A stretch of 64,000 bases of DNA, taken from positions 1 to 64,000 of the forward strand of contig WMBV01000002.1 of assembly GCA_017745595.1 (NCBI GenBank), given 5' to 3'. The notes under the pieces are model-generated. The model ran no database searches. It was not told the DNA's origin and saw nothing but the letters and a program-made list of their open reading frames with translations. The position numbers and the translations under genes were made by a program. Positions 38,125 through 57,178 of this stretch are shown in pieces. Source of the stretch: Bordetella petrii. Its GTDB lineage: Bacteria; Pseudomonadota; Gammaproteobacteria; Burkholderiales; Burkholderiaceae_B. Positions within the stretch are counted from its first letter, which is position 1. Every line of letters starts with the position of its first letter.

Positions 38125-38382
38125 ATGAAGAATGCAGCCCCGATGGCGCGCAGCGTACGGTGGCAGGCGTCGCATATCAGCGAAGCACGCAGCCGCGTGG
38201 GCCTGCCGCAGACGGATTTCGCCGAACTGCTGGGCGTGAGCGTGCGTACTCTGCAAGATTGGGAACAAGGACGGCGCACCCCCTCGGGTGCGGCGAAGAC
38301 CCTGCTGCAGGTAGCCATGCTGCACCCCGAGACCCTGCGCGAGCTGCCCCCGTGGCGCGCCAGCGAGCAGACTGAATCTTGA
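38125..38382 (+). CDS. XRE-family helix-turn-helix protein, antitoxin-like
   Basis: An 85-residue protein. A single HTH (about 25-60) reads LPQTDFAELLGVSVRTLQDWEQGRRTPSGAA and is followed by LLQVAMLHPETLREL, the pattern of HigA/NadS-type antitoxins. No RelE/HigB toxin gene is found on either side, so it is an orphan antitoxin or a stand-alone repressor. A strong inverted repeat covers the -10 element upstream and an intrinsic terminator follows, so it is a self-contained unit. Confidence 0.8.
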   Translation: MKNAAPMARSVRWQASHISEARSRVGLPQTDFAELLGVSVRTLQDWEQGRRTPSGAAKTLLQVAMLHPETLRELPPWRASEQTES

Positions 38383-38465: not shown

Positions 38466-38627
38466 TTGGAAATCCTCGAAACCTCCCGGCCTGGCAAGGG
38501 CCCCGGCAAGGCCAACAGCGCTGACGCGAACGCGTCCGCCGCCTCTACCCTGGCCGACACCATCGCCGCCGCCAACACCGGCGGCCGGGCCCCACGCGTG
38601 GGGTTCGTTTCACTCGGCTGTCCGTAG
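38466..38627 (+). pseudogene. rimO: rimO 5' fragment cut by element insertion
   Basis: A TTG-initiated frame of 53 codons ends in RVGFVSLGCP followed directly by TAG. RVGFVSLGCPK is the conserved start of RimO, the radical-SAM methylthiotransferase of ribosomal protein S12. The Cys in SLGCP is the first ligand of its auxiliary Fe-S cluster. After the CCG codon the sequence switches to lower-GC DNA with no rimO similarity. The remaining roughly 400 residues must lie at the other end of the element, outside this window. A perfect 14-bp palindrome, CCCCACGCGTGGGG, sits at 38590-38603 just before the junction. Confidence 0.75.
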
Positions 38628-38742
38628 CATATTGAAACTAAACTTCCCCGCCAGGCGCATTCGTAGCCTGCATTAGCGCCGCCCTGCGCGAGCGCCTCAC
38701 CCCGTTCCCGCCGATACCGTCGGCGCCCCTCAGAATTTGTCT

Positions 38743-39030
38743 ATGAGGCCACATGATCTGGCGGGCGCACGCGCGCCCATGGGCGTTGACGCGCCATTTG
38801 AATATCCGCTAACCGCTCGTGCTGCTCACCGGGCGGCTCGCCTGTGGTTCCAGACGGCGACGGCACTACCGGCCGCACAATTCCGGGACCAATTCTTTCG
38901 GGAACATTGCCAGGGGCACAACTACACCCCAGCCGAGCGCAACGGGCGGCAGCTTGCGTTTCGTCAGGCATTCGCAACCGCCATCGGGCACATCCTGGTT
39001 GAGGAGGGCCGACTCCGTGCAACTACTTGA
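38743..39030 (+). CDS. Hypothetical protein, first gene of the element
   Basis: A 95-residue soluble, mildly basic protein; no family recognised. Central features are AAHRAARLWFQTATALPAAQFRDQFFREHCQ and a C-terminal helix. It overlaps the next gene by 14 bp, and GAGGAGGG near its 3' end is that gene's ribosome site, so the two are translated together. An earlier TTG at 38737 adds two residues. Confidence 0.55.
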   Translation: MRPHDLAGARAPMGVDAPFEYPLTARAAHRAARLWFQTATALPAAQFRDQFFREHCQGHNYTPAERNGRQLAFRQAFATAIGHILVEEGRLRATT

Positions 39031-39361
39031 ATGCCCGGTAAGTTTTCGCCTATCCGCCGAAACGCACCGCAAATACTCTGTTGCGGCCAAGCAACACGGC
39101 ATGGACCTGTCGAAATACCTTCGCGCTCGGCTGGAAACTGAGGACGCGGTATCAGAACACGTCTCCCAACTGCGCCTCACGCTGCTGGATACCGCTTCAG
39201 ATCAACTTGGTACAGAGCATCTGACGCCCATTCTGCTCGAACTGCTGCTGCTGGCGCGTCGGGTGTCCTCTCCCGGCGACCTACGTGCAGTCCATCTAGA
39301 ACTCGAACGCCAGGGGATTCCATGCTGGACCCCTGACCGGCATCAGGATTTGCCGGAGTAA
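39017..39361 (+). CDS. Small putative DNA-binding protein, MobC-like N terminus
   Basis: A 114-residue protein with a GTG start preceded by GAGGAGG at good spacing. The N terminus CPVSFRLSAETHRKYS with AKQHGMDLSKYLRARLE resembles ribbon-helix-helix relaxosome accessory proteins of the MobC/TraJ kind, which bind oriT. The C-terminal half is Leu-rich (LTPILLELLLLARRV). No relaxase gene is adjacent, so this is a suggestion from pattern only. Confidence 0.5.
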   Translation: MQLLECPVSFRLSAETHRKYSVAAKQHGMDLSKYLRARLETEDAVSEHVSQLRLTLLDTASDQLGTEHLTPILLELLLLARRVSSPGDLRAVHLELERQGIPCWTPDRHQDLPE

Positions 39362-39401
39362 AGCTCCGACCAGTCCGGCCGACCAATTCCGGGAGAAATC
39401 A

Positions 39402-40238
39402 ATGCAATTGAACCACCTGGTCACCATACTCTCGGTGGCCTGCCTCTTGTCGGCCTGCGGTTTTGCACCGCCTGCCCCGCCCCAACCTGCTGACAGTCCT
39501 CGCATAGCCATCAACAATGGCGACCCTCGTCTAGAGCCTAATCGGCAGGACGTCGAGGTTTCCGCGCCACTGCCGGAGCCCATCAAGCTCAGCCTCGCGC
39601 AAACGGAAGCGAACAGCAACAGCGCGGCGAGCGCCCCGGCGCATGCCGATGGTGCGACCTCGGACAAGTCGAAAGAGGAAACCATCCCCGTGCCGACTGC
39701 GCCACCGAAGGCCGGCTCTTCAAACTTGGGAGCCCCTATCGAGGATGATCCGGTAAAAGGCTCTTCAAGCGATTCGGCAACGCCGTCAACGCTGCCTGAC
39801 AGCGCGACAAGGGAAATAGCTCGGCCCATCATGGCATCACCCAGCCTGGCTCCAATCGCCGACGCGCAGGCAAGCCTCCCCTCGGCCGATCCCATCGCCG
39901 TCGCGGAACCCACGCTGGAAGCCACCCCTGTTGTGATCAAGGAAGTTTGGCACATTGGACCGGAAGACGGCACTGTCCGGCAGGCGCTGGCCCGTTGGGC
40001 GGCGAAGGCGAATTGGACATTCGGAGCCGATCAATGGGAATTGAACTTCGACCTCCCCATCGAGGCGCCAGCTGATTTCGAAGCCGAAAACTTTCGGGAA
40101 GCAATCCAGGCGCTTTCTCAGGCCATCGCCATGACCGAGTCGCCAGTACGTCCCTGCTTCTACGCGAACCATGTGCTGCGCATGATCCCATTTACTCGCA
40201 GCTGCAGTCGCACGGCAAGTCCGACACCCCAAACCTAA
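39402..40238 (+). CDS. pilL: PilL-like pilus lipoprotein with TcpQ-type C-terminal domain
   Basis: A 278-residue lipoprotein with lipobox LLSAC (Cys19). A long Pro/Ala/Ser-rich linker (about 25-185) leads to a C-terminal domain beginning VWHIGPEDGTVRQALARWA and including WTFGADQWELNFDLPI, the TcpQ_C pattern. In IncI-type thin pili PilL starts the operon and is thought to help assemble or dock the outer-membrane secretin. It is the first gene of the pil operon, 24 bp before the secretin gene. Confidence 0.8.
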   Translation: MQLNHLVTILSVACLLSACGFAPPAPPQPADSPRIAINNGDPRLEPNRQDVEVSAPLPEPIKLSLAQTEANSNSAASAPAHADGATSDKSKEETIPVPTAPPKAGSSNLGAPIEDDPVKGSSSDSATPSTLPDSATREIARPIMASPSLAPIADAQASLPSADPIAVAEPTLEATPVVIKEVWHIGPEDGTVRQALARWAAKANWTFGADQWELNFDLPIEAPADFEAENFREAIQALSQAIAMTESPVRPCFYANHVLRMIPFTRSCSRTASPTPQT

Positions 40239-40262
40239 ACCGCCGCTCCACCAGGACCACCC

Positions 40263-41978
40263 ATGACAGCATTCCGCTCTGCGGCGGCCGTGCTGGCGCT
40301 CATCGCGCTTGCCGGTTGCTCTGCTCTCCAATCGACTCAACGGATCGCCGAGCGCGCCGAAACCCAATCTGAACAAAACCGCCGAACGCTGGACGCCTTC
40401 AAGGAACAAGTGCGCGACCCTGCCCGAGCCGATGGCCAGGTCGTCGCTCTCCCCTGGATTGCAGGCCGACCCCAGCCGCTGGCGCGGGAGGTATCGCTAC
40501 CGGCGGCGCTGCGCGCCAACGTCAATACCACGATGCTGTTCGACGACGGCGCTGCTGACCTTGCCACGTTGGCCGAAAGGATCCAGCTGGCCACCGGCAT
40601 TCTTACGCAGGTAGCACCGGACGCACTTCTGCCCCGTGAATATTTCCTGCCGCGACTGGGGACGGAGCAGCTGGATCTGTCGGTCCATGGTGGAAACCTC
40701 GCAACCGCCGACACTCTCGTTCCTGCACTCGTGCCCGACGTCAGTGTGGACCGCGTGGCTGGGCCCGCGCTACCCAGGGGTGTCGCCCGGACAAAGATGG
40801 CGCCGTTGCCTGGCGGGAAAGCCCCACTCTCGACTGTCCTCGACTCGATCGCGCTACGCCTCGGCGTCTATTGGCGCTACGACCCGAAATACGGCGCCAT
40901 TCGGTTCTACCGCACCGAGACTCGCACCTTCTACGTCAAGGCGTTAGAACTTACCGCCGAGACAAGTCTCGAGCTCGGCTTGTCAGGGAATGGAGGTTCG
41001 CAAGGATCCGACGGTCAGTTTGCCTCACAGAATCGATCCAAATATGCCACCTCTGACCAAACGCGCCCAGCTGAAGCGGTACTCGTGAAGGTAAGCCAAT
41101 ACCTCACCCGCGCTGGCGTAGTCAAAGCTGCCCACGGCGCTGCGAACAGCATCGTGGTGACAGACACCAAAGACGCTCTGGACGCAGTGGGGCGGTTCCT
41201 GGATTCTGAAAATCGAATCATGGCGCGCAGCGTGCGGATGCTCTTCGAAGAGATCACCGTGCAACTGGATCACGTCAACCAAGCAGCCCTTGACTGGCAC
41301 TTGATCTACAACAGTCTGGGTCGGGCCAATGCTGCCGCCGGCGATGCTCCTGGTCCCCTCCTGGACACTACCAAGGCCGCCGGCACCATTGGCGGCACAG
41401 TGGGAAGTGGTCCTTTTGCCGGCACAGGCCTGCTCATGAGCGCCTTGAGCGAGGTCGGCACCGTTGTGCGGCATACCAGCATTCCGATTCTCGCCTCCAA
41501 CCTGCGGCCGGCCACAGTCGCCGTGCGGCAAACAATCCCCTACGTAAAGGACCTCCAGCAGACACAAAGCTACTCCGACGCCTCGGGGCCCACGGTCAGT
41601 GTCACGCAAGATGAGAAAACTGTTGGCACATTCCTGACAGTGGTTCCGAACGCGCAGGACGACGGCCGCGTCCAGCTGACCGTTTCCTACGATGACACGC
41701 GACTTATTGGCGCTCTGCAAAAGCTTGAATTCGGGTCGCCTGATTACCCCTCTTTTGTTCAGCAGGCAAAGATCGGTGGCAGAGGCGCGATCCAACAGGT
41801 CGAACTGCGCCCGGGCCAGCCCGCGCTCATCGGCGGTTTCGAACAGTCCGCCGGCAATAGCACACGCCGACGCCTGGACGATAGTGCGCCTATCGCGTTG
41901 GGAGGATCCGATGCTACCCAGGATCAGAAGCAGATCACGCTGCTTCTGATGACAGCCATTCCTGAAGAAGGCTTTTAA
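40263..41978 (+). CDS. pilN: PilN-family secretin (type IVb pilus outer-membrane channel)
   Basis: A 571-residue outer-membrane lipoprotein with lipobox LAGC (Cys19). N-terminal periplasmic N-domains contain LDSIALRLGVYWRYDPKYGAIRFYRTET. The C-terminal secretin barrel includes SIPILASNLRPATVAVRQTIPYVKD and FLTVVPNAQDDGRVQLTVSYD. It forms the gated pore through which the pilus emerges. It is followed 2 bp later by pilO, so the genes are co-transcribed. Confidence 0.9.
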   Translation: MTAFRSAAAVLALIALAGCSALQSTQRIAERAETQSEQNRRTLDAFKEQVRDPARADGQVVALPWIAGRPQPLAREVSLPAALRANVNTTMLFDDGAADLATLAERIQLATGILTQVAPDALLPREYFLPRLGTEQLDLSVHGGNLATADTLVPALVPDVSVDRVAGPALPRGVARTKMAPLPGGKAPLSTVLDSIALRLGVYWRYDPKYGAIRFYRTETRTFYVKALELTAETSLELGLSGNGGSQGSDGQFASQNRSKYATSDQTRPAEAVLVKVSQYLTRAGVVKAAHGAANSIVVTDTKDALDAVGRFLDSENRIMARSVRMLFEEITVQLDHVNQAALDWHLIYNSLGRANAAAGDAPGPLLDTTKAAGTIGGTVGSGPFAGTGLLMSALSEVGTVVRHTSIPILASNLRPATVAVRQTIPYVKDLQQTQSYSDASGPTVSVTQDEKTVGTFLTVVPNAQDDGRVQLTVSYDDTRLIGALQKLEFGSPDYPSFVQQAKIGGRGAIQQVELRPGQPALIGGFEQSAGNSTRRRLDDSAPIALGGSDATQDQKQITLLLMTAIPEEGF

Positions 41979-41980
41979 CC

Positions 41981-43324
41981 ATGGCCAGGCAACAGAGCTA
42001 TCGAACGCTCCCAATTACCGGCACTCAGAACGCACTGGTCATGGGCATGAGCTGGCAGACGGTACTCGGCCAGGATCTCACGGTCGCTGCCATGAAGGCC
42101 GCCCGACAGGCCGGCGCCACGCACTTCACGCAGGCGGGCCCGCGCAGTCCCGCCGTCGGCCTTCTGAAAGCGGAGGGACGCGACCGTCGCGCCAAAGCAA
42201 AAACTCGCCTCTACTCCGCAGCTGCGGCATTCGCCCAGTTGCATCGGCATGGCACCCAGATCGTGAGCGCCGAACTCGCGAGCGGAGAGGTCTGGATCGC
42301 CGTGGCAGTCGATGGGACAGTGCAAACCGGAGGAGACAAAGTACTCCCCAATGCGGAAGCTGGCCAACAGGCACTGGATGCCCTCATCGAGCGTTACCGC
42401 GACGCCGTAATACATGGTGCCGCGCGCACTGGCGCAATGCCGTTTCAGTTGAGCCAACTGGCAACTTTGGCCAACACGCAGTCGTCCTTACGGCGTGCCG
42501 CGTTCCGGTTGTCCATGATTTCGCCGGTCTGGTGGGTTGTCCTGACGCTGCTAGTGTCCTACCTCGCTTGGGATGCCTTCCAGACCTGGTGGCATGAGAA
42601 ACAAGCATTGGAACAGCAGCGCTTGGAAGCCATGCGCACCTCTGTCGATGCACATGCACTCTGGCAACAAGCGCTCGACAAGTGGGCTCGGACCACTCGG
42701 GCCGATGGTGAATCTGGCCTGGTGCAACTCCTGGAGTCGGTCGCCCAGGCGCCAGTCACGCCTGGCAGATGGGTACTGGCGGAAGTCTTCTGCCAGCCCG
42801 CCGCTCAGGCCTGCTCCGCGAAATACAAGCGATCGCGGCTGGCAGACAACAATACCCTGCAGGCCGCTCTTCCCGCCGATTGGCATGTTGTCTTCCCGGA
42901 TCTGGAAACTGCGAGAGTGGACTGGAAAATGGCCTCGCAAACCAAAGGCAGGCCGCTTCGACTTGCCGAGATTCCCGATGCCGCCGCCGTGGAGAATAGC
43001 TGGGCCGTCAGCTGGCAGGCGCTAACCCCGGCGCTACAGGACTTCAAGCTCGACCCGGTGAAAAAAGTACCAGTTCGTGTACCGAATATCCGGCTCCCCA
43101 ATGGTCTTGAACAACCCGTTGAGCTTCCCTCTGACATGACCGTGCCTGCCATGCTGGCCTTCACCATCAACGCGCCGCTGCGCTCGCTCTATGCACTGGC
43201 TCTGCCAGACACCACGACACTTGCACATCTTCAGGTTCGCTACCAACCTGACGCAATGGCCAAGCTCAACGCCAGCAGCTTCTCGGCCACGCTCGAAGGA
43301 GTCATCTATGTACAACCACGCTGA
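41981..43324 (+). CDS. pilO: PilO-like type IVb pilus assembly protein
   Basis: A 447-residue bitopic inner-membrane protein. The cytosolic N-terminal domain (1-180) has a RNase H/actin-like feel (WIAVAVDGTVQTGGDKVL). One transmembrane helix (about 183-205, PVWWVVLTLLVSYLAWDAF) and a periplasmic domain complete it. It matches PilO2 proteins of conjugative thin pili, which link the ATPase complex to the periplasmic apparatus. Its 3' end overlaps the pilP start by 17 bp. Confidence 0.85.
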   Translation: MARQQSYRTLPITGTQNALVMGMSWQTVLGQDLTVAAMKAARQAGATHFTQAGPRSPAVGLLKAEGRDRRAKAKTRLYSAAAAFAQLHRHGTQIVSAELASGEVWIAVAVDGTVQTGGDKVLPNAEAGQQALDALIERYRDAVIHGAARTGAMPFQLSQLATLANTQSSLRRAAFRLSMISPVWWVVLTLLVSYLAWDAFQTWWHEKQALEQQRLEAMRTSVDAHALWQQALDKWARTTRADGESGLVQLLESVAQAPVTPGRWVLAEVFCQPAAQACSAKYKRSRLADNNTLQAALPADWHVVFPDLETARVDWKMASQTKGRPLRLAEIPDAAAVENSWAVSWQALTPALQDFKLDPVKKVPVRVPNIRLPNGLEQPVELPSDMTVPAMLAFTINAPLRSLYALALPDTTTLAHLQVRYQPDAMAKLNASSFSATLEGVIYVQPR

Positions 43325-43862
43325 CAGGCGTCGGCCGACGCCTTTCTGGCCAATGTTTTTCGGCCTACTCGTCGGATGGACGCTTCCGCTTGCAGTATCG
43401 GCCGAGTCAAGCAATCTGGCAGTCGCGCCAGCCCCGCCACCTGCGCCTCCGGCACATCTCGTCCGAGAATTGCTCGAACAGGATGCGCGTCGAGCTTTGC
43501 TGAATGAACAGATGGCCGACATATCGAAGTCTGGTAGCGCCAGGTCGCCGTCGTCGACAACTCTGCCAGAAATGGCGCGTGCGAACGGCCCGGACGAACC
43601 AATCGAGGCACCGGCCAAACCGACAGAGCAAGCGACTGCTACGCGGTTGAAGGCCATCGTCGGTGTTGACGGCAAGCTGTCGGCCATCGTGGAAGTAGAC
43701 GGCCGGGCGGTCGTATACAGAGCCGGCCAGGCGCTCCCTGCTGGTGGCCACGATGGCGGCCTGCGGCTCGTTCGCATTGCAGCGCCGTGCGTCGAGTTGG
43801 CTGATCCTAGGCATGAACCGGAAGCCCGCCTCTCGGCCTGCTTGAACGAAGGGCATCAATGA
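43308..43862 (+). CDS. pilP: PilP-like type IVb pilus protein
   Basis: A 184-residue exported protein with a signal/anchor (about 14-31). A coiled-coil-like stretch RELLEQDARRALLNEQMADI is followed by a Pro/Thr linker and a C-terminal domain, RLKAIVGVDGKLSAIVEVDGRAVVYRAGQ. That domain resembles the beta-rich PilP module contacting the secretin. The start is set by GAAGGAG 7 bp upstream of the ATG. Its stop overlaps the pilQ start by 4 bp. Confidence 0.82.
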   Translation: MYNHADRRRPTPFWPMFFGLLVGWTLPLAVSAESSNLAVAPAPPPAPPAHLVRELLEQDARRALLNEQMADISKSGSARSPSSTTLPEMARANGPDEPIEAPAKPTEQATATRLKAIVGVDGKLSAIVEVDGRAVVYRAGQALPAGGHDGGLRLVRIAAPCVELADPRHEPEARLSACLNEGHQ

Positions 43863-45655
43863 AACACCTGCTCAACTTAATCCGCCGGCTTCCTACACGA
43901 GCTCTGGCTTCCGCGGCCCCCTCTGTGCCCGAAACCTCCCCCGTGCACATAGACACTGATCCCGCAGATCCCGACACGCGACCTCTGGATGAGCCGCGAG
44001 CGGACCTCGCCTCCATGAAAGACATCGCCGAGCTACAACCGAGCTTTCGAGCGCTAAAGGTTGATTGGGTCGGCCCTGACGCGGCTATCACCGCGTCGGT
44101 GGCCGAGCTCGAAGGAGATCGGTACGCCGTCTTCGTAAAGCGCGGCCAGCTGGATACCGACATCTTTCGCGCCGTCCAGGCTCGTGCACGCGAGGCTGAC
44201 AGAAAGCATCTAGGCGTACCCATCTACACAGTGGCCCCCGTCGTGCTCCTGACGTTGGTGCGTGAGCGAATCGGCGCCAAAGACCTCGTCGGACTTGCGT
44301 CGAATACGGGGGGCCGGTCAGCTGTTCGCACTGGCTTTCACGATCTCGTCGCTTGGGCCGTCCGCAACGGTGCGAGTGATCTCCACCTGAACATCGACCT
44401 TTACTCACCTGTTTCGAAGGTCAGCGCGACCATCGACGGGCAGTATGTCACGCCGGCCCACCTCATCATGCCGACCGAGCGCTTGCATGAGATGGCGCGC
44501 GTGGCCTGGCAGGATGTCACTGGCGGGAACGGAAGTGTGTTTGATACCAAGCGCGAGCAGCAAGGTCGCATGTACGAAGTCATCGATGACCGGAATTACA
44601 TGCTTCGATGGGGCTCGTTCGTCGCCGATACTGGCCCATCAATCACCCTCCGCGCGCTTGACCTCGATGCCAAAGTGGAATCAGTCGACTTGGCCAGACT
44701 GGGGTACCTGCCGTCACAGGTGGAGCAACTGGAACGGGCCCTGCAGAGCAAGGGTGGAGCGGTGATCTTGGGCGGGGTTCCCGGATCGGGCAAGACGACG
44801 ACTATCGGCGAGCTAATCTCACGCTTGCCTGAGACCCGCAAAATCATGTCCATGGAGGACCCGGTAGAGAAGCGCCTTCGTGGTGCATTGCAAGCCAGCC
44901 TGTCGCGCAGCCATAGTGACTCTGATCAGGAAGCGTTCCAGTCCAAGTTGATGGCGCTGAAACGTGCCGCCGCAAGCGACGTGCTGCTCGGCGAGATTCG
45001 AGACAAACTCACCGGCGCCGCATTTCAGGACATAGTGCAGTCGGGCGCGAACTGCTACACGACAACGCACGTGGGCAGTGCCTTGGGTATCCCTCAGCGC
45101 CTTGCTTCCGTACAGATCGGCATTCCTTGGGATGTGTTGGGTTCACCGCGGATCTTGAAACTACTCGGCTATCAGACTTTGATGCCTGTGCTGTGCCATT
45201 GCGCATTGCCGGCAGAGAGTCTGTTGGAAGGTTCGCCCGATGCGATCGGCGTGCACCGCTCGGGAGAATGGTGGAAAACCTATCTCGACCGCATCGAACG
45301 TCTATACCGCATCTCGCCGAAAACCATTCGCGTACGTAACAGCCAAGGCTGTGAGCAATGCCGGCGCAAAGGTATTCCCGAACTTTTCGGGTACGCGGGC
45401 CGCACGGTGGTCGCCGAGATCTTTGAGCCTGGCGTCGACCCAGAGGCGCTGCGTGCCATCAATGACGGCAACGAGCTTCGCCTACATCAGGTCTTTGCGT
45501 CGCACAGGGTTGCGCCCTTTGACGCTCCGGACATGGATGGCAAGACCGCCATGGAGTGCGCCGTTTACAAGATGAGCCAGGGCGCCATCGATCCGCGCGA
45601 CATTGAACCGCACTTCGTTGCGTTCGCCTCGTTGGATAAGGACAAGTCAAAGTGA
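43859..45655 (+). CDS. pilQ: PilQ-like assembly ATPase of the type IVb pilus (GspE/PilB superfamily)
   Basis: A 598-residue cytosolic ATPase with Walker A GVPGSGKTTTIGEL (about 303-316), the Asp-box region MSMEDPVEKRL and the His-box-like YTTTHVGSALGIPQRL. A CXXC pair (QGCEQCRRKGIPEL) corresponds to the zinc motif of assembly ATPases. It powers pilin polymerisation. It overlaps pilP and pilR by 4 bp on each side, so the three are translationally coupled. Confidence 0.9.
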   Translation: MKHLLNLIRRLPTRALASAAPSVPETSPVHIDTDPADPDTRPLDEPRADLASMKDIAELQPSFRALKVDWVGPDAAITASVAELEGDRYAVFVKRGQLDTDIFRAVQARAREADRKHLGVPIYTVAPVVLLTLVRERIGAKDLVGLASNTGGRSAVRTGFHDLVAWAVRNGASDLHLNIDLYSPVSKVSATIDGQYVTPAHLIMPTERLHEMARVAWQDVTGGNGSVFDTKREQQGRMYEVIDDRNYMLRWGSFVADTGPSITLRALDLDAKVESVDLARLGYLPSQVEQLERALQSKGGAVILGGVPGSGKTTTIGELISRLPETRKIMSMEDPVEKRLRGALQASLSRSHSDSDQEAFQSKLMALKRAAASDVLLGEIRDKLTGAAFQDIVQSGANCYTTTHVGSALGIPQRLASVQIGIPWDVLGSPRILKLLGYQTLMPVLCHCALPAESLLEGSPDAIGVHRSGEWWKTYLDRIERLYRISPKTIRVRNSQGCEQCRRKGIPELFGYAGRTVVAEIFEPGVDPEALRAINDGNELRLHQVFASHRVAPFDAPDMDGKTAMECAVYKMSQGAIDPRDIEPHFVAFASLDKDKSK

Positions 45656-46752
45656 AACCGATTTTCGCCAGATGGCGGGTCAAGTGGGCGGCTAATCAGT
45701 TCGCCAAGCATCGTGACGACTGGTACGAATACTTGGCGGACATGATCGCCGACAGTGCGGGGCATCGGTCCATTCGCGACATCTTTGAGGCGGACGCGCG
45801 ACGTTACGGCCCCCATTCCGCCAGAGGTATCTTGTCGGCGCACTGGGCGCACGGCATCGGCGACAGCGGCGATCTTGGGCAGGCGACCATAGGAACATTG
45901 CCCCGCCGCGAAGTCGCGGAGCTGGCGGCGCTGCAGCGGCGCGGCCAGGCGGTATTCGCAGACGGGCTGCGCGACATGGCCGCGATCGTGCGTCTGTCGA
46001 AGCGACTGAAGGACATCCTCAAATGGACCCTGATGGCAGGCGTTGTTTCCGCCCTCGTCCTCTGGCTCGTCGTAATGGTCGCCGTCCCCTACATCTCTGC
46101 CCCCGAACTCCGTGACGCATTCCCCGACATGCCTGCCAGCTATTACGGGCCCTATGCGCGGACGTTCTTTGGCCTCGCGGAATGGATCCGCAACAGGGGC
46201 GTCGTTGTCTGGCTGGTGTCCATCGGCGCCGTCGCTCTATTGATAGTGTCCTTTCCACACTTTGACGGCCGCCTGCGGCGTTGGCTGGACACTTGGGGAC
46301 CATATCGTCTCTATCGCGATATCCAGGCCGTCTCTGTGGTGAGTTCCGTGGCCACGTCCGTCAAACAGCGCGCCGGTATCACGATTCCGATTCGAGACGC
46401 TCTGGACGCTCAACGGTCCGGTGCTTCCCGCTGGTTAGGTGCGCGCATTCAAGCGATGGTCGCGCGCCTCGACGATGACGGCGCCGGGGCATCGATCTTT
46501 AACGTAGGCATCTTCGACCGCGAGACTTATTGGTACCTCGAAGACTTGACTGGATCTCTCGGCCTGGATCTTGCACTTCAGAGGACGCGCATGCGGCTGG
46601 AGACATCCATGCTCAAGCGAATCGAGCACCGCGCCCTCATCATACGGTGGGTACTGCTGATTGCATCTGTACTGTCGCTAATGGGCATTCTTGCTTGGCA
46701 CTATGCGGTCATCTTCGATTTGCGCAACGCGATGATGCTCGCAAACTTCTGA
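45652..46752 (+). CDS. pilR: PilR-like inner-membrane platform protein (type II secretion F domain)
   Basis: A 366-residue polytopic protein with a GTG start overlapping the pilQ stop. Transmembrane segments lie near 125-148, 185-203 and 325-345. The cytosolic repeats include SSVATSVKQRAGITIPIRDALDAQRSGASRWLGARI, typical of GspF/PilC. It forms the inner-membrane platform on which the ATPase acts. A terminator follows immediately. Confidence 0.85.
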   Translation: MKPIFARWRVKWAANQFAKHRDDWYEYLADMIADSAGHRSIRDIFEADARRYGPHSARGILSAHWAHGIGDSGDLGQATIGTLPRREVAELAALQRRGQAVFADGLRDMAAIVRLSKRLKDILKWTLMAGVVSALVLWLVVMVAVPYISAPELRDAFPDMPASYYGPYARTFFGLAEWIRNRGVVVWLVSIGAVALLIVSFPHFDGRLRRWLDTWGPYRLYRDIQAVSVVSSVATSVKQRAGITIPIRDALDAQRSGASRWLGARIQAMVARLDDDGAGASIFNVGIFDRETYWYLEDLTGSLGLDLALQRTRMRLETSMLKRIEHRALIIRWVLLIASVLSLMGILAWHYAVIFDLRNAMMLANF

Positions 46753-46774
46753 CCCTTCATCTAATCCCATCTTG

Positions 46775-46798
46775 AGACCCCGCACTTCCGGGGTCTTT
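46775..46798 (+). terminator. Intrinsic terminator between pilR and pilS
   Basis: Perfect 8-bp stem AGACCCCG (46775-46782) and CGGGGTCT (46789-46796), loop CACTTC, followed by a short pyrimidine/T run. It lies between the platform gene and the major pilin gene, so it may cap the assembly-gene transcript or act as a partial terminator. Confidence 0.65.
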
Positions 46799-46836
46799 CT
46801 CATTCTGCGGCCGGTTGGCCATCATAGGAGTTCTCA

Positions 46837-47505
46837 ATGGGCAATATCGCCTCTGTTCAAACCGCTGCTGTCCAAGCATCCCGCTGCCGCCTGCGCTTTC
46901 GACCCACCTGGCAGCTCAGCAGGACTGATCCGCTCCACCACCAGCGTGGGCAATTCAGCCTGATTGAAGTCGGTATCGTGGCTGGGCTAATGATCCTGGC
47001 CGTCGTGTTCGGTGTGCCTGCCTTTCAAGGGATATTGACCGAAATGCGCGTACCTTCGGCGGCAGGAGAGCTGCAGCGCTTCATGGCCCGCACGCGCGTG
47101 CTCGGCGAAGGGGACAACGTTACTCCTTATGCCAACCTGACGACGGCCGACAACCTCGTGCCGGCGCTGCGGGGGTCCTCCACCTTCAAGGTGTCCGATA
47201 CGACGGTTGCCCACCGCTTGGGCGGATCGGGCGTGGGAACGAACGGAACCATTTCTCTCGAGCCTGCAGCGCTGGGCGGAGGCGCGATGGGAAGCGCATT
47301 CTCCATCACGCTCACCAACGTCAACATGAAGGCTTGCCCCACCTTGGCATCCACGCTTAACGCGGTGGCAGAAACGATTTCCGTCAACGGGGCGGTCGCC
47401 AAAGCGCTCGGCACCAATAACGCGGCCGGCACATACGATCCTGCAATCGCAGAGGGCCTCTGCGAGAAGGGCGACTCCAATACCTTCGTCTTCGCGAGCC
47501 GCTAG
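46837..47505 (+). CDS. pilS: PilS-like major type IVb prepilin
   Basis: A 222-residue prepilin with a long leader of about 38 residues, as in type IVb pilins. The segment RGQFSLIEVGIVAGLMILAVVFG holds the processing site and the N-terminal assembly helix. A C-terminal disulfide is possible (Cys in MKACPTL and EGLCEKG). Classical prepilins have Gly directly before the Phe so that Glu is residue +5; here a Gln intervenes. Cleavage after Gly would put Glu at +6. A separate terminator precedes the gene, fitting higher independent expression of the major pilin. Confidence 0.82.
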   Translation: MGNIASVQTAAVQASRCRLRFRPTWQLSRTDPLHHQRGQFSLIEVGIVAGLMILAVVFGVPAFQGILTEMRVPSAAGELQRFMARTRVLGEGDNVTPYANLTTADNLVPALRGSSTFKVSDTTVAHRLGGSGVGTNGTISLEPAALGGGAMGSAFSITLTNVNMKACPTLASTLNAVAETISVNGAVAKALGTNNAAGTYDPAIAEGLCEKGDSNTFVFASR

Positions 47506-47550
47506 GGCATCCTCACGAACCCATGGCCAGGTCCACACCTGCGCTCGCCT

Positions 47551-48807
47551 TTGCACAGGGGCCGAGCCGCACTCTCACGAGGATACGTCTTGATCGCCTT
47601 TCTCTTTACCCTCCTTGTCGGAATCCTAGCTGCCGTTCTCGCCTCGGGGCAGTACCGGGACGCGGTGGACGACAGCGCCGCGGCGAGTACTGGTCGGTAC
47701 CTTCTACAAGTGCGCGGCGCCGTGGTCGACTTGCAGGTTAAGTATCAGGCCTGGCTGGGCGATGGAAGCGGCGCCGGCCCCCCCAGCGACACGCCCATAC
47801 CGGAGGGCCTAGCTTGGCAATCGGTCGCCGGTGTTCAAGTTGCGCGGGGCAGCGTATCGGATCTAGTCGATTTGGGGCTCTTGTCCAGCAATACGCCCCG
47901 ATACCCTCTCTTGGGTGACGCAGTGCGGTTTGTCCTAGTCCGCCAAGGTGCATGCCCGAGTGCAGAATGTCGCACAACCGCCTTTGTCTACACCTGCCAC
48001 CCGATCAATGGGGAGCGGAGCCGTCGGCAGCCAGGGGAATGTACCAATCCTACGGGTGATCGGGCCAAGTTTTCATCGGCGCTTTTAGCCAAGGTGTTGA
48101 TGTCGGCCGACGGCTACGGCGGGCACGACGCACAGGGTGGGCCCAATGTCGTCGGTCCATTGATGAACGCCCCAAAGGCCTGGTTCGACTTCGGCACAGA
48201 GCGTGGCCATGCGGTGCTTGCTGCAGGACTCGACGCGACGCCATTTGGACAGTTTGTTCGGCACGGAGAAACCAGGCCCGTCACCCTGCACAATACGCTC
48301 ACCGTTGACCAAACGATCCAGTCGAACACGGGCCTCTTGTTGAACACTGCGATCGTTCCCGGCACCGCTTGCTCCCCGGAAGGTCTTTACGCCTCTACGC
48401 CTGACAAGACCCTCGCGGTGTGTCTGGAGGGAGCCTGGTTCGCCGCTACCAGCCATATGGTCACCGGCGTGTATGGCGATCTACCCAATAACGCCACAAT
48501 CCCCGCACTTGCGTGTCCGACGGGGCTCATCGCGTGGCGGTATGTCGCCATGCAGGACTCAGATCTGACGGTGACAGGCAGCGATATCAATGTGGCGGGC
48601 GATGTCAGCGGAACGATTCAGGGCTCCGGCTCGGTGAACGCCGCTGGTTCCGTCTCAGTCAACGGCTCGTTCACCGGTACGTTTCAGAACGCTGGTTCTA
48701 GCTACGTTCACGTCACCCAGAACGTCTCTGTCGTGGGTGACCGCATTGCCATCACACCGGCAGGCCCGAATGCCCGGGCCGCCGTCATCCAGGGCTGCAA
48801 GAGCTAG
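47551..48807 (+). CDS. pilV: PilV-like minor pilin / tip adhesin
   Basis: About 418 residues from a TTG codon. A prepilin-like N terminus SRGYVLIAFLFTLLVGILAAV precedes a long extracellular part. The C-terminal region is rich in Gly, Ser, Thr and Val with repeated motifs (DINVAGDVSGTIQGSG, SVNAAGSVSVNGSFTG) suggestive of beta-helix or adhesin structure. In IncI plasmids PilV sits at the pilus tip and picks the recipient, with its C terminus switched by a shufflon; no recombinase or inverted segments are seen here. The start codon is uncertain. Confidence 0.72.
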   Translation: MHRGRAALSRGYVLIAFLFTLLVGILAAVLASGQYRDAVDDSAAASTGRYLLQVRGAVVDLQVKYQAWLGDGSGAGPPSDTPIPEGLAWQSVAGVQVARGSVSDLVDLGLLSSNTPRYPLLGDAVRFVLVRQGACPSAECRTTAFVYTCHPINGERSRRQPGECTNPTGDRAKFSSALLAKVLMSADGYGGHDAQGGPNVVGPLMNAPKAWFDFGTERGHAVLAAGLDATPFGQFVRHGETRPVTLHNTLTVDQTIQSNTGLLLNTAIVPGTACSPEGLYASTPDKTLAVCLEGAWFAATSHMVTGVYGDLPNNATIPALACPTGLIAWRYVAMQDSDLTVTGSDINVAGDVSGTIQGSGSVNAAGSVSVNGSFTGTFQNAGSSYVHVTQNVSVVGDRIAITPAGPNARAAVIQGCKS

Positions 48808-48832
48808 CCCTTCCAAAATGGAGGTTTCCATC

Positions 48833-49672
48833 ATGCTCCGCTTCTCCAAGCGCCAGGGCAGGCGCCGGCTCGCCCTCGCGGGCGTCCTTCTCCCTCTCGC
48901 GTCACCGTTCGCATCCCCGACCACCAACCAGGCCGACGTGCAGCTGCAGACGGACCTGAGCCACATGGTGATTCGTGTGGACCAGGCCGATCCGTTGCCC
49001 CCAGGTGGTTGCACGGCTGGCCATGCTTGGCACCCAACGTTTGGCGGCTGCCGGCGCCAGGAGACGCGTTCGGAGGTAGCCCAATGTGCAGCCGGCTGGA
49101 CCGGGTCCAAAGTCCGGTACCGAACTGCATATATCTTGCAGGCCAACGCTGCTGATGTCGCGTACGGCGACTGGGGGCCTTGGCAAGAAAGTTGCAGTCC
49201 GCCCCGTCGGGCGGGGGTGGTCGATACCGTCATTGCGAAGGCGCGCGGGAAACAGAACGGAGAGTCGTCGAACTCCAGCAATCTGTCGGGCAATATCAAG
49301 AAGCAAATGCAGGTCAGCTACGGCACCATGTATGGCGTCACGGTCTATCGTCCGAACGCGACCCTGAACTGCATCTACGCATCCGGGTCGACCTCCAGTA
49401 GCGGCGAAAGCTCCAACCGTATCTGGTTCGGTCGGCTTCTCTCGCCAGGGCAGTCGATCGACAAGGGAAGTGCGGGCCATTGTCGGCTCTCTAGCGGTGG
49501 CCGGGTCGCCGAGGTCTATGGCAGCTGCGACAGCACCTCAGGCGGCGACAGCGATTCGTGCCGACGCGCCACGCGCACCGTTCGTATCACTGCAACGAGT
49601 GATTGCAAGGTGAACACGGAAGTGCATGATGGCAGTCGTCTAATCGGCACCCCCAGCTACAGCCTTTGCTGA
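48833..49672 (+). CDS. Exported Cys-rich protein of unknown function
   Basis: A 279-residue protein with a signal peptide (about 1-28, ending near PFASPT). It has about ten Cys residues and a segment DWGPWQESCSP that looks like a thrombospondin type 1 style Trp/Cys motif. A Ser/Gly-rich middle and a C-terminal Cys-containing beta-rich part follow. The ATG at 48833 has GGAGG 8 bp upstream. Position between the pilin-type genes and trbM suggests a surface or periplasmic part of the mating apparatus. No family recognised. Confidence 0.6.
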   Translation: MLRFSKRQGRRRLALAGVLLPLASPFASPTTNQADVQLQTDLSHMVIRVDQADPLPPGGCTAGHAWHPTFGGCRRQETRSEVAQCAAGWTGSKVRYRTAYILQANAADVAYGDWGPWQESCSPPRRAGVVDTVIAKARGKQNGESSNSSNLSGNIKKQMQVSYGTMYGVTVYRPNATLNCIYASGSTSSSGESSNRIWFGRLLSPGQSIDKGSAGHCRLSSGGRVAEVYGSCDSTSGGDSDSCRRATRTVRITATSDCKVNTEVHDGSRLIGTPSYSLC

Positions 49673-49683
49673 AGGGGACTCCA

Positions 49684-50316
49684 ATGATCTTCAGATTTGC
49701 CAGGCAACTAGCTGCCTTCTTCGTGTTGTCCGTGGTCGGAGTGTCTCCTGGCCTGGCGGCTGGCACGACCGCACCACCGCAAATGTCGATTGAGCCGTCA
49801 CTGCTGACTGGCGATGTGCGTCTTGCCTGCGAGGCGATACTTTGCCTGTCAAGTAGCCAAGGCCAAGCGCAATGTGACCCCGCACTGTCGCGTTACTTCG
49901 GAATCAGAAAGCGCAAACTCTCTGACACGCTCGATGCTCGCCTGGATTTCCTCAACCTATGTCCATCTGCTGACGATTCGGCTGAGATGGGTTCGTTGGT
50001 GAGAGCTTTGGCGCGCGGAGCAGGAAGGTGCGACGCAAAGACCCTGAACCAAACCCTGCGCCACTACATTGGGCAGGGAGGTGACGCGGGCTACGACGGC
50101 GCCGTCATCTCCAATCGACTGCCGACGTACTGCTCCGCATACATATTGCACACATACACCGACCTACGCGGCCAACTCCCGCGCTATGTTGGCACACCCG
50201 AGGAAGACGGATTCTGGAGCGAAGCCAAAGACTATGCGGCGGCTCTTGCCCGCTACAAGCGGGAGCAGGCCGCCAAGAAGGCCCGGAGGGAAAACTACGG
50301 CGGGGGAGACAACTAA
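49684..50316 (+). CDS. trbM: TrbM-like exported protein
   Basis: A 210-residue protein with a signal peptide ending near SPGLAAG. It carries the TrbM/KikA signature CEAILCLSSS, CDPALSRYFGI and a later LNLCPS, with conserved Cys residues in disulfide-type spacing. TrbM proteins are encoded in conjugative transfer regions; their role is not established. It starts after AAGGGGA and lies 2 bp before the lytic transglycosylase gene. Confidence 0.78.
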   Translation: MIFRFARQLAAFFVLSVVGVSPGLAAGTTAPPQMSIEPSLLTGDVRLACEAILCLSSSQGQAQCDPALSRYFGIRKRKLSDTLDARLDFLNLCPSADDSAEMGSLVRALARGAGRCDAKTLNQTLRHYIGQGGDAGYDGAVISNRLPTYCSAYILHTYTDLRGQLPRYVGTPEEDGFWSEAKDYAAALARYKREQAAKKARRENYGGGDN

Positions 50317-50318
50317 AA

Positions 50319-50999
50319 ATGGATCTCCCGGCTGTCGACTTCCCCACTCTGGCACGACGGTGCGCGCCCGATGTTCACATCAGCACCCTCGCAGCCGTGG
50401 TGCGTCATGAATCCGCCTTCAACCCTTTGGTGATCGGCGTTAACAGCAAGCCGCACCGTAGCATTCGCCCTTCATCGCGCGCAGAGGCTGTCGAAGAAGT
50501 ACGCAAGCTAATCGACAAGGGCGTCAACTTTGACGTTGGCTATGGCCAAATCAACGTACGCAACTGGAAATGGCTGGGCGTCACCGCTGAAACGATCTTC
50601 GACCCATGCGTAAATTTGGCGTCGGCGCAGCGTGTCTTAGTCGCCTGCTATGAACGGGCCGCTAAACAAGCCGGACCAGGTCAAAGGGCACTTTACGCTG
50701 CCTTCAGCTGCTATAACACCGGCAACCTCACCGATGGCTTTCGAAACGGCTATGTGGGCAAAGTCTTGGCCGGCGCGGGGCTCGCCGTCCCGGCAATTGG
50801 CCAAGACACACGCGGTGCGCCCCGAGAGGCCAATTCTGAAGCTGGCCCAAAGGACGCAACGCGGCCCCCACGTGCAGACGCATTTGTGCAACCACGGCCA
50901 GACGTCTTTGCGAATACCCGCCGAGGTGCCTTCGAAAGATCAACGTCCGCTGTCTTTGGCATCCCAATCGCGCGACCGGAACCTGGCTCGCGTAAGTAG
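50319..50999 (+). CDS. virB1: VirB1-like lytic transglycosylase
   Basis: A 226-residue SLT-fold enzyme with catalytic Glu in VVRHESAFNP (E31) and the conserved FDVGYGQINVRNW and YNTGN segments. It opens peptidoglycan for assembly of the secretion channel, and could serve the pilus as well. There is no obvious N-terminal signal peptide, as for several VirB1 homologues whose export is unclear. The C-terminal tail is Pro/Arg-rich and probably disordered. Confidence 0.87.
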   Translation: MDLPAVDFPTLARRCAPDVHISTLAAVVRHESAFNPLVIGVNSKPHRSIRPSSRAEAVEEVRKLIDKGVNFDVGYGQINVRNWKWLGVTAETIFDPCVNLASAQRVLVACYERAAKQAGPGQRALYAAFSCYNTGNLTDGFRNGYVGKVLAGAGLAVPAIGQDTRGAPREANSEAGPKDATRPPRADAFVQPRPDVFANTRRGAFERSTSAVFGIPIARPEPGSRK

Positions 51000-51046
51000 C
51001 CGCGGCATGTTTAGCCGCTGAACACCCCCCTATTTTCTTTTTGGCA

Positions 51047-51079
51047 AGTGCCGACCGCGGCCGCGCGCTGGTCGGCGCT
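51047..51079 (+). promoter_or_regulatory. Hairpin upstream of virB2
   Basis: AGTGCCGACC (51047-51056) and GGTCGGCGCT (51070-51079) pair over 10 positions with one wobble. It lies 17 bp ahead of the virB2 ATG. No T-run follows, so it may stabilise the downstream mRNA or attenuate rather than terminate. Confidence 0.4.
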
Positions 51080-51096
51080 CGCCTATGGAGTTTGAA

Positions 51097-51399
51097 ATGC
51101 AATTCACCGCACGCAACGTTCCGCGCAAGCTGTCCTTTATCGCCAATCTGATGATTGCCACTCTGCTGCTCGTACAGCCGGAGCTGGCTATGGCGCAGTT
51201 CGAGAAGGTCACTTCCGGGCTCGACACTTTCAAAGCATGGCTCTGGCTGATTATTCCGGTCGCTGCCTTGTGCATTGCGGGGATACTCGGCTTGCTCTAT
51301 TCGGCCGAAGTCATTCGCAAAGACACGTTGATCCAGTGGGGCGGCGGTGTTGTTTTTGCCGGCGCCATCGCCGGCGGAATCATTAAGCTCTTCTTCTGA
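51097..51399 (+). CDS. virB2: VirB2-like pilin subunit
   Basis: A 100-residue prepilin of the P-type T4SS. A long signal peptide ends near LAMA-QFEK (about 33). Two hydrophobic helices (about 46-68 and 82-100) are joined by a short basic loop, RKDTLIQ. GGAG lies 6 bp ahead of the chosen ATG; an earlier ATG at 51085 adds four residues. Mature VirB2 forms the conjugative pilus. Confidence 0.85.
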   Translation: MQFTARNVPRKLSFIANLMIATLLLVQPELAMAQFEKVTSGLDTFKAWLWLIIPVAALCIAGILGLLYSAEVIRKDTLIQWGGGVVFAGAIAGGIIKLFF

Positions 51400-51401
51400 G
51401 C

Positions 51402-51800
51402 ATGGCCAGCTCGTCCAAAGCTGGGCGCCCGGCGCCAGCGGTGGCGGCGCCCAACCAGAAATCGGCCGTCCCGCCCAATCAGTACCCCCTCTTCAAGGGC
51501 GCCACCCGTATAGCGACCATCAAAGGTGGCGTGCCGACCCGGGCGTTCATGGGTCTGGTCTTCGTCACGGTAGTGATCGCTATGTTCACACTTTGGGGAT
51601 GGCTGGTGGGTCCGGTGCTCTATCCCGTCCTGGCCGTACTCAGCCGCAATGACGACCGCGCGTTTTGGATTTGGGAACTTTGGCTTCGAACAAAGTTTCT
51701 TGCCCGGAACAAGCGCTTCTGGGGCGCAGTCTCGCTCACCCCGACCCCACACAGCAAGCGCCGGCCATGGCGCCGGCAGTCCGGAGGCCACAAGCAATGA
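51402..51800 (+). CDS. virB3: VirB3-like inner-membrane protein
   Basis: A 132-residue protein. The N-terminal Pro/Ala-rich segment precedes YPLFKGATRIATIKGGVPTRAF, the VirB3 signature, and one or two transmembrane helices (about 50-80). The tail is basic. The stop overlaps the virB4 start by 4 bp; VirB3 and VirB4 work together in the inner membrane and are fused in some systems. Confidence 0.82.
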   Translation: MASSSKAGRPAPAVAAPNQKSAVPPNQYPLFKGATRIATIKGGVPTRAFMGLVFVTVVIAMFTLWGWLVGPVLYPVLAVLSRNDDRAFWIWELWLRTKFLARNKRFWGAVSLTPTPHSKRRPWRRQSGGHKQ

Positions 51801-54244: not shown

Positions 54245-54246
54245 AT

Positions 54247-54969
54247 ATGTTCTCAGTCAATGCGCTCTGCCGCCGCCATGTCGCCAGCGCCCTTGCCCTC
54301 GCCCTGCTCCTCAACGCGGCCATGCCCGCGCAAGCGAGCGGCATCCCGGTCGTTGATGGCGCCAGCATCGCTGATCGTGCGATCAAGCATGCGGCGACGA
54401 TGGGCAAGTTCATCGAACAGATCGAAGTGCTGCGCAATCAGCTCGAGAGCCAGCGCCGCCAGTTGGAGTCGCTGACGGGCACCCGAAATCTGGGCGATAT
54501 CCTGAACAACCCTTCCATACGGGCGCTGCTTCCCGACGATGCGCGCTCCATATTGCGCGGCGCCGACGGTGGAGATCTTCAGGAAATCCTGAAGCGGCTT
54601 GAAGTCGAAGAACGGCTCACTGGCAACTACGAGACGGATCGCCGCAACCTGGATACCCGCGCGGCGCAGTTCAAACTGCGAAGCCAGGCATTGATGGAAC
54701 AAACGCAGGAGGCCATGACAGCGCGAATGGAGCAGGTCAGCCAGCTGCAGGCACAGATCAACCAAACACAGGATCCGAAGGCCATCGCAGACTTGCAAGC
54801 TCGCCTCTTGGTCGAGCAGGCCAATATTCAGGCGGACCAAACGCGCGCGGATATGCTTACGCGTCAGCTTGCGGCCGAGCAAGCCTTAATGCAGGCGCAA
54901 GCGGACAAGTTGGCGGCCACTTCGTTCAGTATCGACGCGATTCGCGCGCCGCTGCCAGGAGCGCGATGA
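54247..54969 (+). CDS. virB5: VirB5-like minor pilus component
   Basis: A 240-residue exported protein with signal peptide cleaved near AQA-SG (about residue 30). The helical core has the family segment LESLTGTRNLGDILNNP. Long amphipathic helices with Gln-rich heptads (about 135-225) follow. VirB5 proteins sit at the T-pilus tip and may act as adhesins. The stop overlaps the virB6 start. Confidence 0.82.
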   Translation: MFSVNALCRRHVASALALALLLNAAMPAQASGIPVVDGASIADRAIKHAATMGKFIEQIEVLRNQLESQRRQLESLTGTRNLGDILNNPSIRALLPDDARSILRGADGGDLQEILKRLEVEERLTGNYETDRRNLDTRAAQFKLRSQALMEQTQEAMTARMEQVSQLQAQINQTQDPKAIADLQARLLVEQANIQADQTRADMLTRQLAAEQALMQAQADKLAATSFSIDAIRAPLPGAR

Positions 54970-55859
54970 TGGCCACGGGCGCAGTGACCCTTGTCAGCCT
55001 TGGAGAGATTGCCAACTGGATCGACCAATCGGTGACGACCATGCTGACGGACGTCATTACGCCGATGGTGGCCTCGATCACCGAGAAGATTCTGCCTGTC
55101 GTGGCTCTCGGCCTCTCCATCGCGCTGATCTGGTATGGTTGGGCGATGATGTCTGGTGCAATCCAGACGCCGGTTCTCGCTGCCGCTCGACGCATTGTCA
55201 AGATCGGCGTCATCGTCGGCATAGCGGGGAGCGGCGGCCTCTACCAGCAGCAGATCGCTGGCGCCATGTTGGCTCTTCCAAGTGCCGTGGCTCAGGTCTT
55301 CACCGGAACAACAAAGACCCCATCGCAGATAATGGATGAAGCAGCCAATACGGGCGCGGAGATCGGCACTCGCGTCCAGGACCGTGCACCCGACGGCATC
55401 TCGAACATTGGCAGAGCGTTCGTCTTTGTTGTCGTCTCAATCATCATTACGGTTATCTCAGCCATCATGAGCGCGGCAGGCATGATGGTCCTGATCACTG
55501 TAAAGACGGGCATGGGCCTGGTCGTCGTCCTCGGGCCGATCTGTATCCTCGCCCTGCTTTTTGACCGAATGGAATATCTGTTTGTGGGGTGGCTCAGGCA
55601 AGCTCTGTATTACGCCATATACGGAGGACTGTTCATGGTCGTCTTCATGTTCATAATGGGCATGTTCGGCATGCTGCAGCAAGGGCTACTAGACCTTAGC
55701 AAAACGGATCAGATCAACATATTTTCCATGCTGACGGCGATTGTGTTTTTCATGATTTGCTCAAAGTTCATTCTCGATCAGGTGTCTACCGTGACAAGCA
55801 CGATTACTGGTGGTAGGGGTGGCGGATTTAGCATTCCCTTCCTTGGCAGAATCGGCTAA
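54966..55859 (+). CDS. virB6: VirB6-like polytopic channel protein
   Basis: A 297-residue inner-membrane protein with about six transmembrane helices (VVALGLSIALIWYGWAMM, AFVFVVVSIIITVISAIM, MVLITVKTGMGLVVVLGPI, YAIYGGLFMVVFMFIMGMF and others). The central periplasmic loop and the aromatic-Gly pattern are TrbL/VirB6-like. It contributes to the DNA translocation channel. The ATG overlaps the virB5 stop by 4 bp. Confidence 0.85.
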   Translation: MMATGAVTLVSLGEIANWIDQSVTTMLTDVITPMVASITEKILPVVALGLSIALIWYGWAMMSGAIQTPVLAAARRIVKIGVIVGIAGSGGLYQQQIAGAMLALPSAVAQVFTGTTKTPSQIMDEAANTGAEIGTRVQDRAPDGISNIGRAFVFVVVSIIITVISAIMSAAGMMVLITVKTGMGLVVVLGPICILALLFDRMEYLFVGWLRQALYYAIYGGLFMVVFMFIMGMFGMLQQGLLDLSKTDQINIFSMLTAIVFFMICSKFILDQVSTVTSTITGGRGGGFSIPFLGRIG

Positions 55860-55919
55860 GATCTATCGAAACAAACACATACAATGTTTCTTGCACAGAA
55901 CGCCGCCGGAGCGCTACTC

Positions 55920-56249
55920 ATGGCACCAATCACGCCTTTTGGTAAACCACTCTCCCAGAGTCCCTTGATGGGCTCGGAAACCTTGCCGCCGTCGGCCACG
56001 ACGACCGGCGCGGAAAAGCCGATCTCGGCATTTCAATGGGTCAGCGTTCTCCGTGCAACCTGGACCTGGATTCTTCGCCCACTCTGGTACGTCTGCTTCA
56101 AATGGCCGGCGCAGCTGTTGTTTGTGGGAATGACGCCGAGGTCTGTTTCACGCGCCGATGAAGAGCGTCGCAGGGACGATGATGAATGGTGGGCGCAACG
56201 GCAGCATGAGGAATTGAACGCTGCGTGGCAGCGCAGTAAGCGCGATTAG
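55920..56249 (+). CDS. Small hypothetical protein of the virB operon
   Basis: A 109-residue protein from the ATG at 55920, chosen for GGAG 8 bp upstream; an ATG at 55884 lacks a ribosome site. It is Ser/Thr/Pro-rich at first. A Trp-rich hydrophobic helix (about 45-70, TWTWILRPLWYVCFKWPAQL) and a charged tail full of Asp, Arg and Glu follow. It may be a membrane-associated accessory factor. No lipobox, so it is not the VirB7. A terminator follows it. Confidence 0.6.
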   Translation: MAPITPFGKPLSQSPLMGSETLPPSATTTGAEKPISAFQWVSVLRATWTWILRPLWYVCFKWPAQLLFVGMTPRSVSRADEERRRDDDEWWAQRQHEELNAAWQRSKRD

Positions 56250-57173: not shown

Positions 57174-57178
57174 AGACC

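Follow-up and report, generated by a model that had tools for sequence, protein, structure and literature searches.

A 91-kb ICE in rimO of Bordetella petrii that probably re-supplies the start of its target gene

Locus and gene content

The window, a stretch of 64,000 nucleotides from Bordetella petrii, comprises positions 1-64000 of one contig (C22) in a 6.1-Mb draft assembly of 68 contigs (genome G000). Within it, the plus-strand frame 38466..38627 is a 5' fragment of rimO that reads LEILETSRPGKG...RAPRVGFVSLGCP* (LEILETSRPGKGPGKANSADANASAASTLADTIAAANTGGRAPRVGFVSLGCP, then TAG). By our reading, the fragment starts with the TTG at 38466 and runs for 53 codons to the TAG at 38625-38627, which lies just past ...VSLGCP, and foreign DNA follows from there, in agreement with an earlier note on this DNA that had described the frame as RVGFVSLGCP, a stop and an immediate transition. 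Two genomes of another genus in the same family (G080 and G083) have a near-identical rimO beginning (GGAAATCCTGGAAA, compared with GGAAATCCTCGAAA here). The chromosomal HTH gene in the left flank upstream of rimO, outside the element (38125..38382, plus strand; PF01381, 6.3e-9), has homologous DNA upstream of rimO at loci L218 and L219, with 78-79% identity to G080 and G083. Because these genomes share both the gene beginning and the upstream HTH DNA, the left fragment looks like the native start of rimO, severed by the element. The residues preceding the motif are PKVGF[VI] in six of the eight congeners.

The attL site (38601..38643, plus strand) consists of a host half, GGGTTCGTTTCACTCGGC, a core TG at 38619-38620 and an element half, TCCGTAGCATATTGAAACTAAAC. 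The left part of the element occupies the rest of the window (38619..64000), and the whole element runs to C22:129762, that is, 91,144 bp from core to core. The GC content is 0.63-0.72 over 20-38 kb and drops to 0.57-0.65 over 40-64 kb. A tRNA-type integration site was considered and rejected, the 64-kb window containing no tRNA.

The genes identified in the left part of the element all lie on the plus strand. A TcpQ-domain protein (39402..40238; PF10671, 5.1e-17), a secretin (40263..41978; PF00263, 1.3e-9) and a T2SSE ATPase (43859..45655; PF00437, 5.6e-34) are presumably PilL-like, PilN-like and PilQ-like, respectively. Further along are an SLT transglycosylase (50319..50999; PF01464, 4.5e-8), a VirB4/TrbE-type T4SS ATPase (51665..54244; PF03135, 1.3e-24), a type IV secretion protein that we take to be VirB5-like (54247..54969; PF07996, 3e-34), VirB6/TrbL (54966..55859; PF04610, 2e-26), a CagX-type conjugal transfer protein, on our assumption VirB9-like (57751..58569; PF03524, 3.1e-47), TrbI/VirB10 (58566..59720; PF03743, 5e-47) and a second T2SSE ATPase, presumably VirB11-like (59795..60820; PF00437, 8.1e-27). 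The proteins at 41981, 45652, 47551, 48737 and 57179, as well as the one at L004:6200-6847, had no Pfam match. Six VirB-type proteins, a TrwB-type coupling protein and a TrwC relaxase make up the conjugation gene set by which the element is classed as an ICE; the relaxase shares 47.6% identity with plasmid relaxases annotated as MobF. The element also carries partition genes (ParA and ParB) and a catabolic cargo that includes a LigXa-type Rieske oxygenase, an FAD hydroxylase, a citrate-synthase-like protein, a TctC receptor, an amidase, an M20 peptidase and an oligopeptide ABC protein. We infer from the sequence that the element still excises and transfers.

The rebuilt rimO gene

The earlier note had proposed that the remainder of rimO, marked by KALVDSE, should lie 30-100 kb to the right. 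It was found on the same contig, on the plus strand at C22:129718-131043, 91,144 bp away as counted between the first bases of the two core TGs (38619 and 129763), and the presence of both junctions on one contig supports the claim of a large element within the 5' part of the gene. The remainder is in frame behind a new start supplied by the element, MATSKPASIAMISLG, and the gene now begins with MATSKPASIAMISLGCPKALVDSE. The rebuilt ORF encodes 441 amino acids without a stop, with KALVDSE directly after SLGCP; the cysteine is preceded by 15 residues, as against 51 in the left fragment if the TTG is the start. In a whole-genome profile search, its product scored 593 bits with TIGR01125 (cut-off, 356.95), and it is 89-93% identical to the orthologues in eight congeners. 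This RimO (L007:5718-7043 in our set of loci) is about 79-82% identical to Pseudomonas loci, compared with 60-66% for many Burkholderiales loci; an old transfer is one possible explanation.

The gene neighbourhood was compared in six of the eight congeners. The genes to the right of rimO (129718) match in all six, and those to the left in three (G097, G099 and G101). The left block, at 21.1-28.9 kb of the window, contains trkH, trkA, ntrX, ntrY and rsmB (names assigned by reading the proteins, with no family search); from trkH to rsmB it matches G097, and also G099 and G101 as far as their fetched stretches extend. Different genes lie upstream of rimO in G094, G095 and G098. By its neighbourhood, the C22 rimO is the orthologue of the interrupted gene. 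Two observations that the earlier note had named as speaking against its reading, a complete syntenic rimO elsewhere and a missing continuation, were not borne out: the continuation is present and is itself the syntenic orthologue, and the only other TIGR01125 match in the genome, on contig C4, reaches 263.3 bits, for which reason it was rejected as a second orthologous rimO. The C22 protein is the sole RimO above the cut-off.

Two side observations concern the congeners. In the window, about 9.5 kb (29000-38400) separates rsmB from the rimO fragment, compared with a gap of about 2 kb in G097 and G101; the HTH gene at the right end of this interval is one that genus g8 also has. In G095 (locus L204), rimO has an AT-rich start, MTYKSKSPKVGFISLGC, and the DNA is unlike that of the other congeners; this start is perhaps another replacement.

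The earlier note had left a choice between inactivation of rimO and its rebuilding by a new start. The in-frame ORF bears out the rebuilding, and inactivation is unsupported because this ORF has full length, no stops and high identity to its congener orthologues. Some features do point toward a disrupted gene with S12 unmodified until excision: the original 5' end and upstream region are severed, a consensus scan of L007:5560-5800 picked up two promoters on the strand of the recombinase but none on that of rimO, and the ribosome-binding site preceding MATSK is weak by eye. The relatives described below also bear on this reading. The rebuilt enzyme is presumably active, and its promoter would now lie within the antisense of the recombinase 5' end.

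The crossover site

The earlier note had expected a repeat of the left-junction sequence at the right junction, but TTCACTCGGCTGTCC occurs only once on the plus strand of C22:1-144000, and the junctions have only TGTCCG in common. So short a shared sequence is consistent with a serine integrase whose core is 2 bp long. The attR core lies at C22:129763-129764, directly after the last base of the element, and the attP half at the right end is AGTATAGCTATGATCTCTTTGGGG. The attP of Burkholderia phage JC1 includes CTCGGG-TG-CCCGAG, both arms of which are similar to those of the element. When the element arm of attL is compared with the corresponding arm of JC1 attP and with those of four other rimO elements, 12-15 of 20 positions agree. 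The plus strand of C22:1-144000 has 405 further TGYCC sites, all with fewer than 12 matches (mean, 4.4), so the agreement at the left junction is not due to chance.

Junction pairs are present in four other genomes: 50.9 kb apart in G498 and 51.8 kb apart in G480, both single-contig genomes, on two contigs in G397, and 7.1 kb apart in G509, where the pair is only probable and has no recombinase beside it. In G498, the bases flanking the TG differ on both sides, so that only TG is shared there. All five pairs are compatible with a TG core, given no later mutation. The crossover thereby maps to the TG with which the Cys codon in SLG-C-P begins, and it falls, as in the JC1 type of integration, within the SLGCP codons of the 5' part of rimO. 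We take the cysteine of this motif to be an Fe-S cluster ligand. Xanthomonas phage Rb1 has an M-I-S-L-G-C-P stretch near its recombinase start; by eye, no such half-site was seen in the approximately 160 bp before the recombinase of phages Bcep176 and LPPA36.

A draft genome of 68 contigs might raise the suspicion of an assembly chimera or of a rimO fragment present by coincidence. However, a single 379,513-bp contig holds both junctions together with matching att arms, and the same architecture is found in the single-contig genomes G498 and G480; we regard such an artefact as scarcely credible.

The recombinase and its relatives

A large serine recombinase with Resolvase (PF00239) and Recombinase (PF07508) domains is encoded on the minus strand at C22:128020-129702 (TTG start by reading). 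It is divergent from the rebuilt rimO and directly abuts it, its TTG lying 15 bp from the rimO ATG. Among the best 80 of 105 relatives, the nearest full-length one (67%) is located beside rimO in Paraburkholderia rhynchosiae. Identity to gp1 of phage JC1 is 65.4% over 99% of the query, and the element thus shares with JC1 both a homologous large serine recombinase and an element-supplied in-frame start.

At E<=1e-20, the recombinase is found in one of 268 genomes of the family, namely the present one. Across 399 genomes sampled from the order, a relative occurs in 17, and in four of the 16 besides the present one it lies beside rimO (G498, G397, G480 and G353). The other relatives in the order are mostly distant; yet those at L010 and L012 are 52-53% identical, and no rimO was found within 1.5 kb of either. 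At locus L105 (Sansalvadorimonas verongulae), a divergent ORF adjoins the recombinase relative; inspecting its motif, we take it to be a dihydrouridine synthase, and the recombinase may have shifted there from the SLGCP of rimO to the GCP motif of another gene.

For a broader survey, a recombinase alignment was scanned against one genome per species (84,980 species), and the best 80 of 105 relatives were analysed; relatives on viral contigs (best 80 of 212) are outside these counts. rimO is present in the examined stretch at 58 of the 80 loci, directly adjacent at 55 and at 1.2-1.5 kb at three. The remaining 22 have no rimO in that stretch; two of them, L043 and L084, lie at contig edges, with no more than 15 and 118 bases ahead of the recombinase match, and are uninformative. 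These 22 and the three more distant loci (25 in all) were not counted as adjacent. The hosts of the adjacent loci, according to record titles, include beta- and gammaproteobacteria, Acidithiobacillus and one Verrucomicrobiota MAG.

Among these best 80 of 105, an in-frame start is rebuilt at 54 of the 55 adjacent loci, with SLGC intact and an ATG, GTG or TTG at least 5 codons upstream; the control frames +1 and +2 gave such a start at 0/54 and 10/54. TAGG occupies bases -11 to -8 in all 54, and the Gly codon before the TG is GGG in 41. The half-site mostly codes for [RS]-[IV]-G-x-[VI]-S-L-G. In the open-access literature we found no description of this family-wide half-site, although subscription papers may have been missed. 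The one exception among the 55, L037 (Aromatoleum toluclasticum), has the motif frameshifted at the core and was excluded from the frame counts; sequencing error, imprecise recombination and real loss of RimO are all possible. A recombinase tree (n=85; quick search, no bootstrap; L106 and L109 left out for short matches) requires 13 changes of the rimO label, compared with 24.2 for shuffled labels, so the rimO target is conserved but not fixed. That recombinase kinship by itself does not determine the target is seen in the 22 of 80 loci without rimO in the examined stretch, in the order sample, in L010 and L012 and in phages Bcep176 and LPPA36.

L037 thus looks broken, as disruption by insertion would have it. 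Against disruption stand the frame rebuilt at all other adjacent loci, the intact ORF in B. petrii and the (nearly) synonymous differences among element-type starts described next, and we consider it very improbable.

Element-type starts kept after loss of the recombinase

Element-type rimO starts, MATSKPASIAMISLGC and METKRAPSIAMVSLGC, occur respectively in G094 and G097, two congeners in which no recombinase was detected at E<=1e-20. Their homology to the element extends through approximately the first ten recombinase codons, in antisense, and then stops. In G028, a 78% complete genome of another genus, the start is METKRAPSVAMVSLGC, and an internal deletion has left residues 1-14 and 144-218 of the recombinase. 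The att pattern occurs in 13 of 268 family genomes, nine of which were judged by reading to have native GTA or ATA codons.

An att-type rimO start is present in 9 of the 399 genomes sampled from the order, and recombinase decay was examined in these pattern matches and in G353. Beside the att-type start, the recombinase is intact in G000, G498 and G397 and broken in G480. G463 retains a weak trace of the first recombinase codons (12 residues, E 0.13), and G408 a doubtful one. No recombinase was found within 1.5 kb in G311, G398 and G509, the latter two of which have relatives elsewhere in the genome. G353, missed by the att pattern, has a recombinase fragment.

Between G000 and G094, the element-type codons show six differences, all synonymous (simulated P 8.5e-5); between G097 and G028 they show eight, of which seven are synonymous (P 8e-5). 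These are two pairwise comparisons, and the P values assume uniform substitution. Differences that are nearly all synonymous indicate translation of the rebuilt start and purifying selection on it, no matter whether the starts go back to one insertion or to several. The retained non-coding stretch would be the new promoter. A search of the open-access literature, which may have missed subscription papers, found no description of such fossil starts.

Discussion

The junctions, the neighbourhood, the frame, the recombinase and the conjugation genes can all be read from the DNA itself, as can the recurrence of this arrangement in relatives. On these grounds, we are highly confident that a 91-kb ICE entered rimO within a Cys codon and re-supplied the start, leaving RimO at full length. 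In this model, the element-encoded large serine recombinase would recombine attP with the TG of the S-L-G-C-P Cys codon, stranding the original 5' end of the gene at attL as a dead ORF. At the other end, the right-hand attP half would act as a recombinase arm and also forms the last codons (S-I-A-M-I-S-L-G) of the replacement start, whose frame continues into the host codons C-P-K-A-L-V-D-S-E. It is this in-frame start that keeps RimO at full length.

The suggestion of the earlier note that excision is an on/off switch for ribosome modification was not supported. Such a switch would have its target non-functional while the element is integrated, and by sequence the rebuilt ORF is intact, as is the uninterrupted rimO of congeners, so excision would give the gene another promoter and other residues ahead of the cysteine. 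What survives is a question of dosage: rimO could have a different promoter in each state, and the recombinase bound at attR could repress it. The attR arm overlaps the first rimO codons, and this overlap, with the 15-bp spacing between the two start codons, suggests that the divergent genes share control DNA. On the other hand, G094 and G097 keep element-type starts with no detectable recombinase, so such a start can serve without one. A dosage switch seems unlikely to us.

A bolder, speculative and rather doubtful proposition is that rimO elements act as vectors of a portable gene start. The attP arm would then be selected at once as recombinase site, coding sequence and part of a promoter, S12 methylthiolation would come under the control of the element, with attR binding able to lower RimO, and the starts would later be kept by the host.

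The arrangement shows how an element can live in a conserved gene across many bacterial lineages without killing that gene: with the crossover so placed, the element need re-supply no more than a short leader plus the residues immediately preceding the cysteine. If, as suggested, starts outlast the element, the 5' end of a core gene, and perhaps its promoter, would be of mobile-element origin. The conserved half-site could be used in annotating rimO starts and in choosing sites for serine integrases.

Several known systems resemble the present element in part. The dusA-associated islands likewise replace the 5' end of an RNA-modification gene with their own sequence and bring putative promoters, but they use another integrase family and another target; in the main text of that paper, as available, rimO is named once, for Polaromonas (PMC4482086). 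Prophage 2 of Variovorax boronicumulans J1 has a serine integrase and a target listed as RimO; unlike our element it is a prophage, with another att sequence, and the available part of the report gives no detail of the gene start (PMC9658991). In Acidithiobacillus ferrooxidans, an island and an ICE (iMGE1) reside in rimO; iMGE1 is similarly large, of conjugative type and equipped with ParAB, whereas its relaxase is MOBP rather than the TrwC/MobF type found here (PMC10322971). Site occupancy by the A. ferrooxidans elements was validated by PCR, and five of the six tested excised after mitomycin C; in the portions of the paper at hand the sixth is not named and no rebuilt start is described for iMGE1, and the tables contain no integrase for it (PMC10322971).

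The closest parallel is Burkholderia phage JC1, which, according to the available part of its description, integrates in the rimO 5' end and supplies an in-frame ATG, integration having been shown experimentally (PMC9144972). Phage and element share the integration site, a related serine recombinase (65.4%), the preserved frame and similar attP arms, and the ATG of JC1 lies 15 bp upstream of the att overlap; they differ in that JC1 is a 61-kb podovirus and not a conjugative element, in their hosts, and in the evidence, which is experimental for JC1 and sequence-based here (PMC9144972). The site and the start-supplying trick are therefore already published for JC1, and the element of B. petrii is a further case, to which the present analysis adds a family-wide survey of the half-site and the fossil starts.
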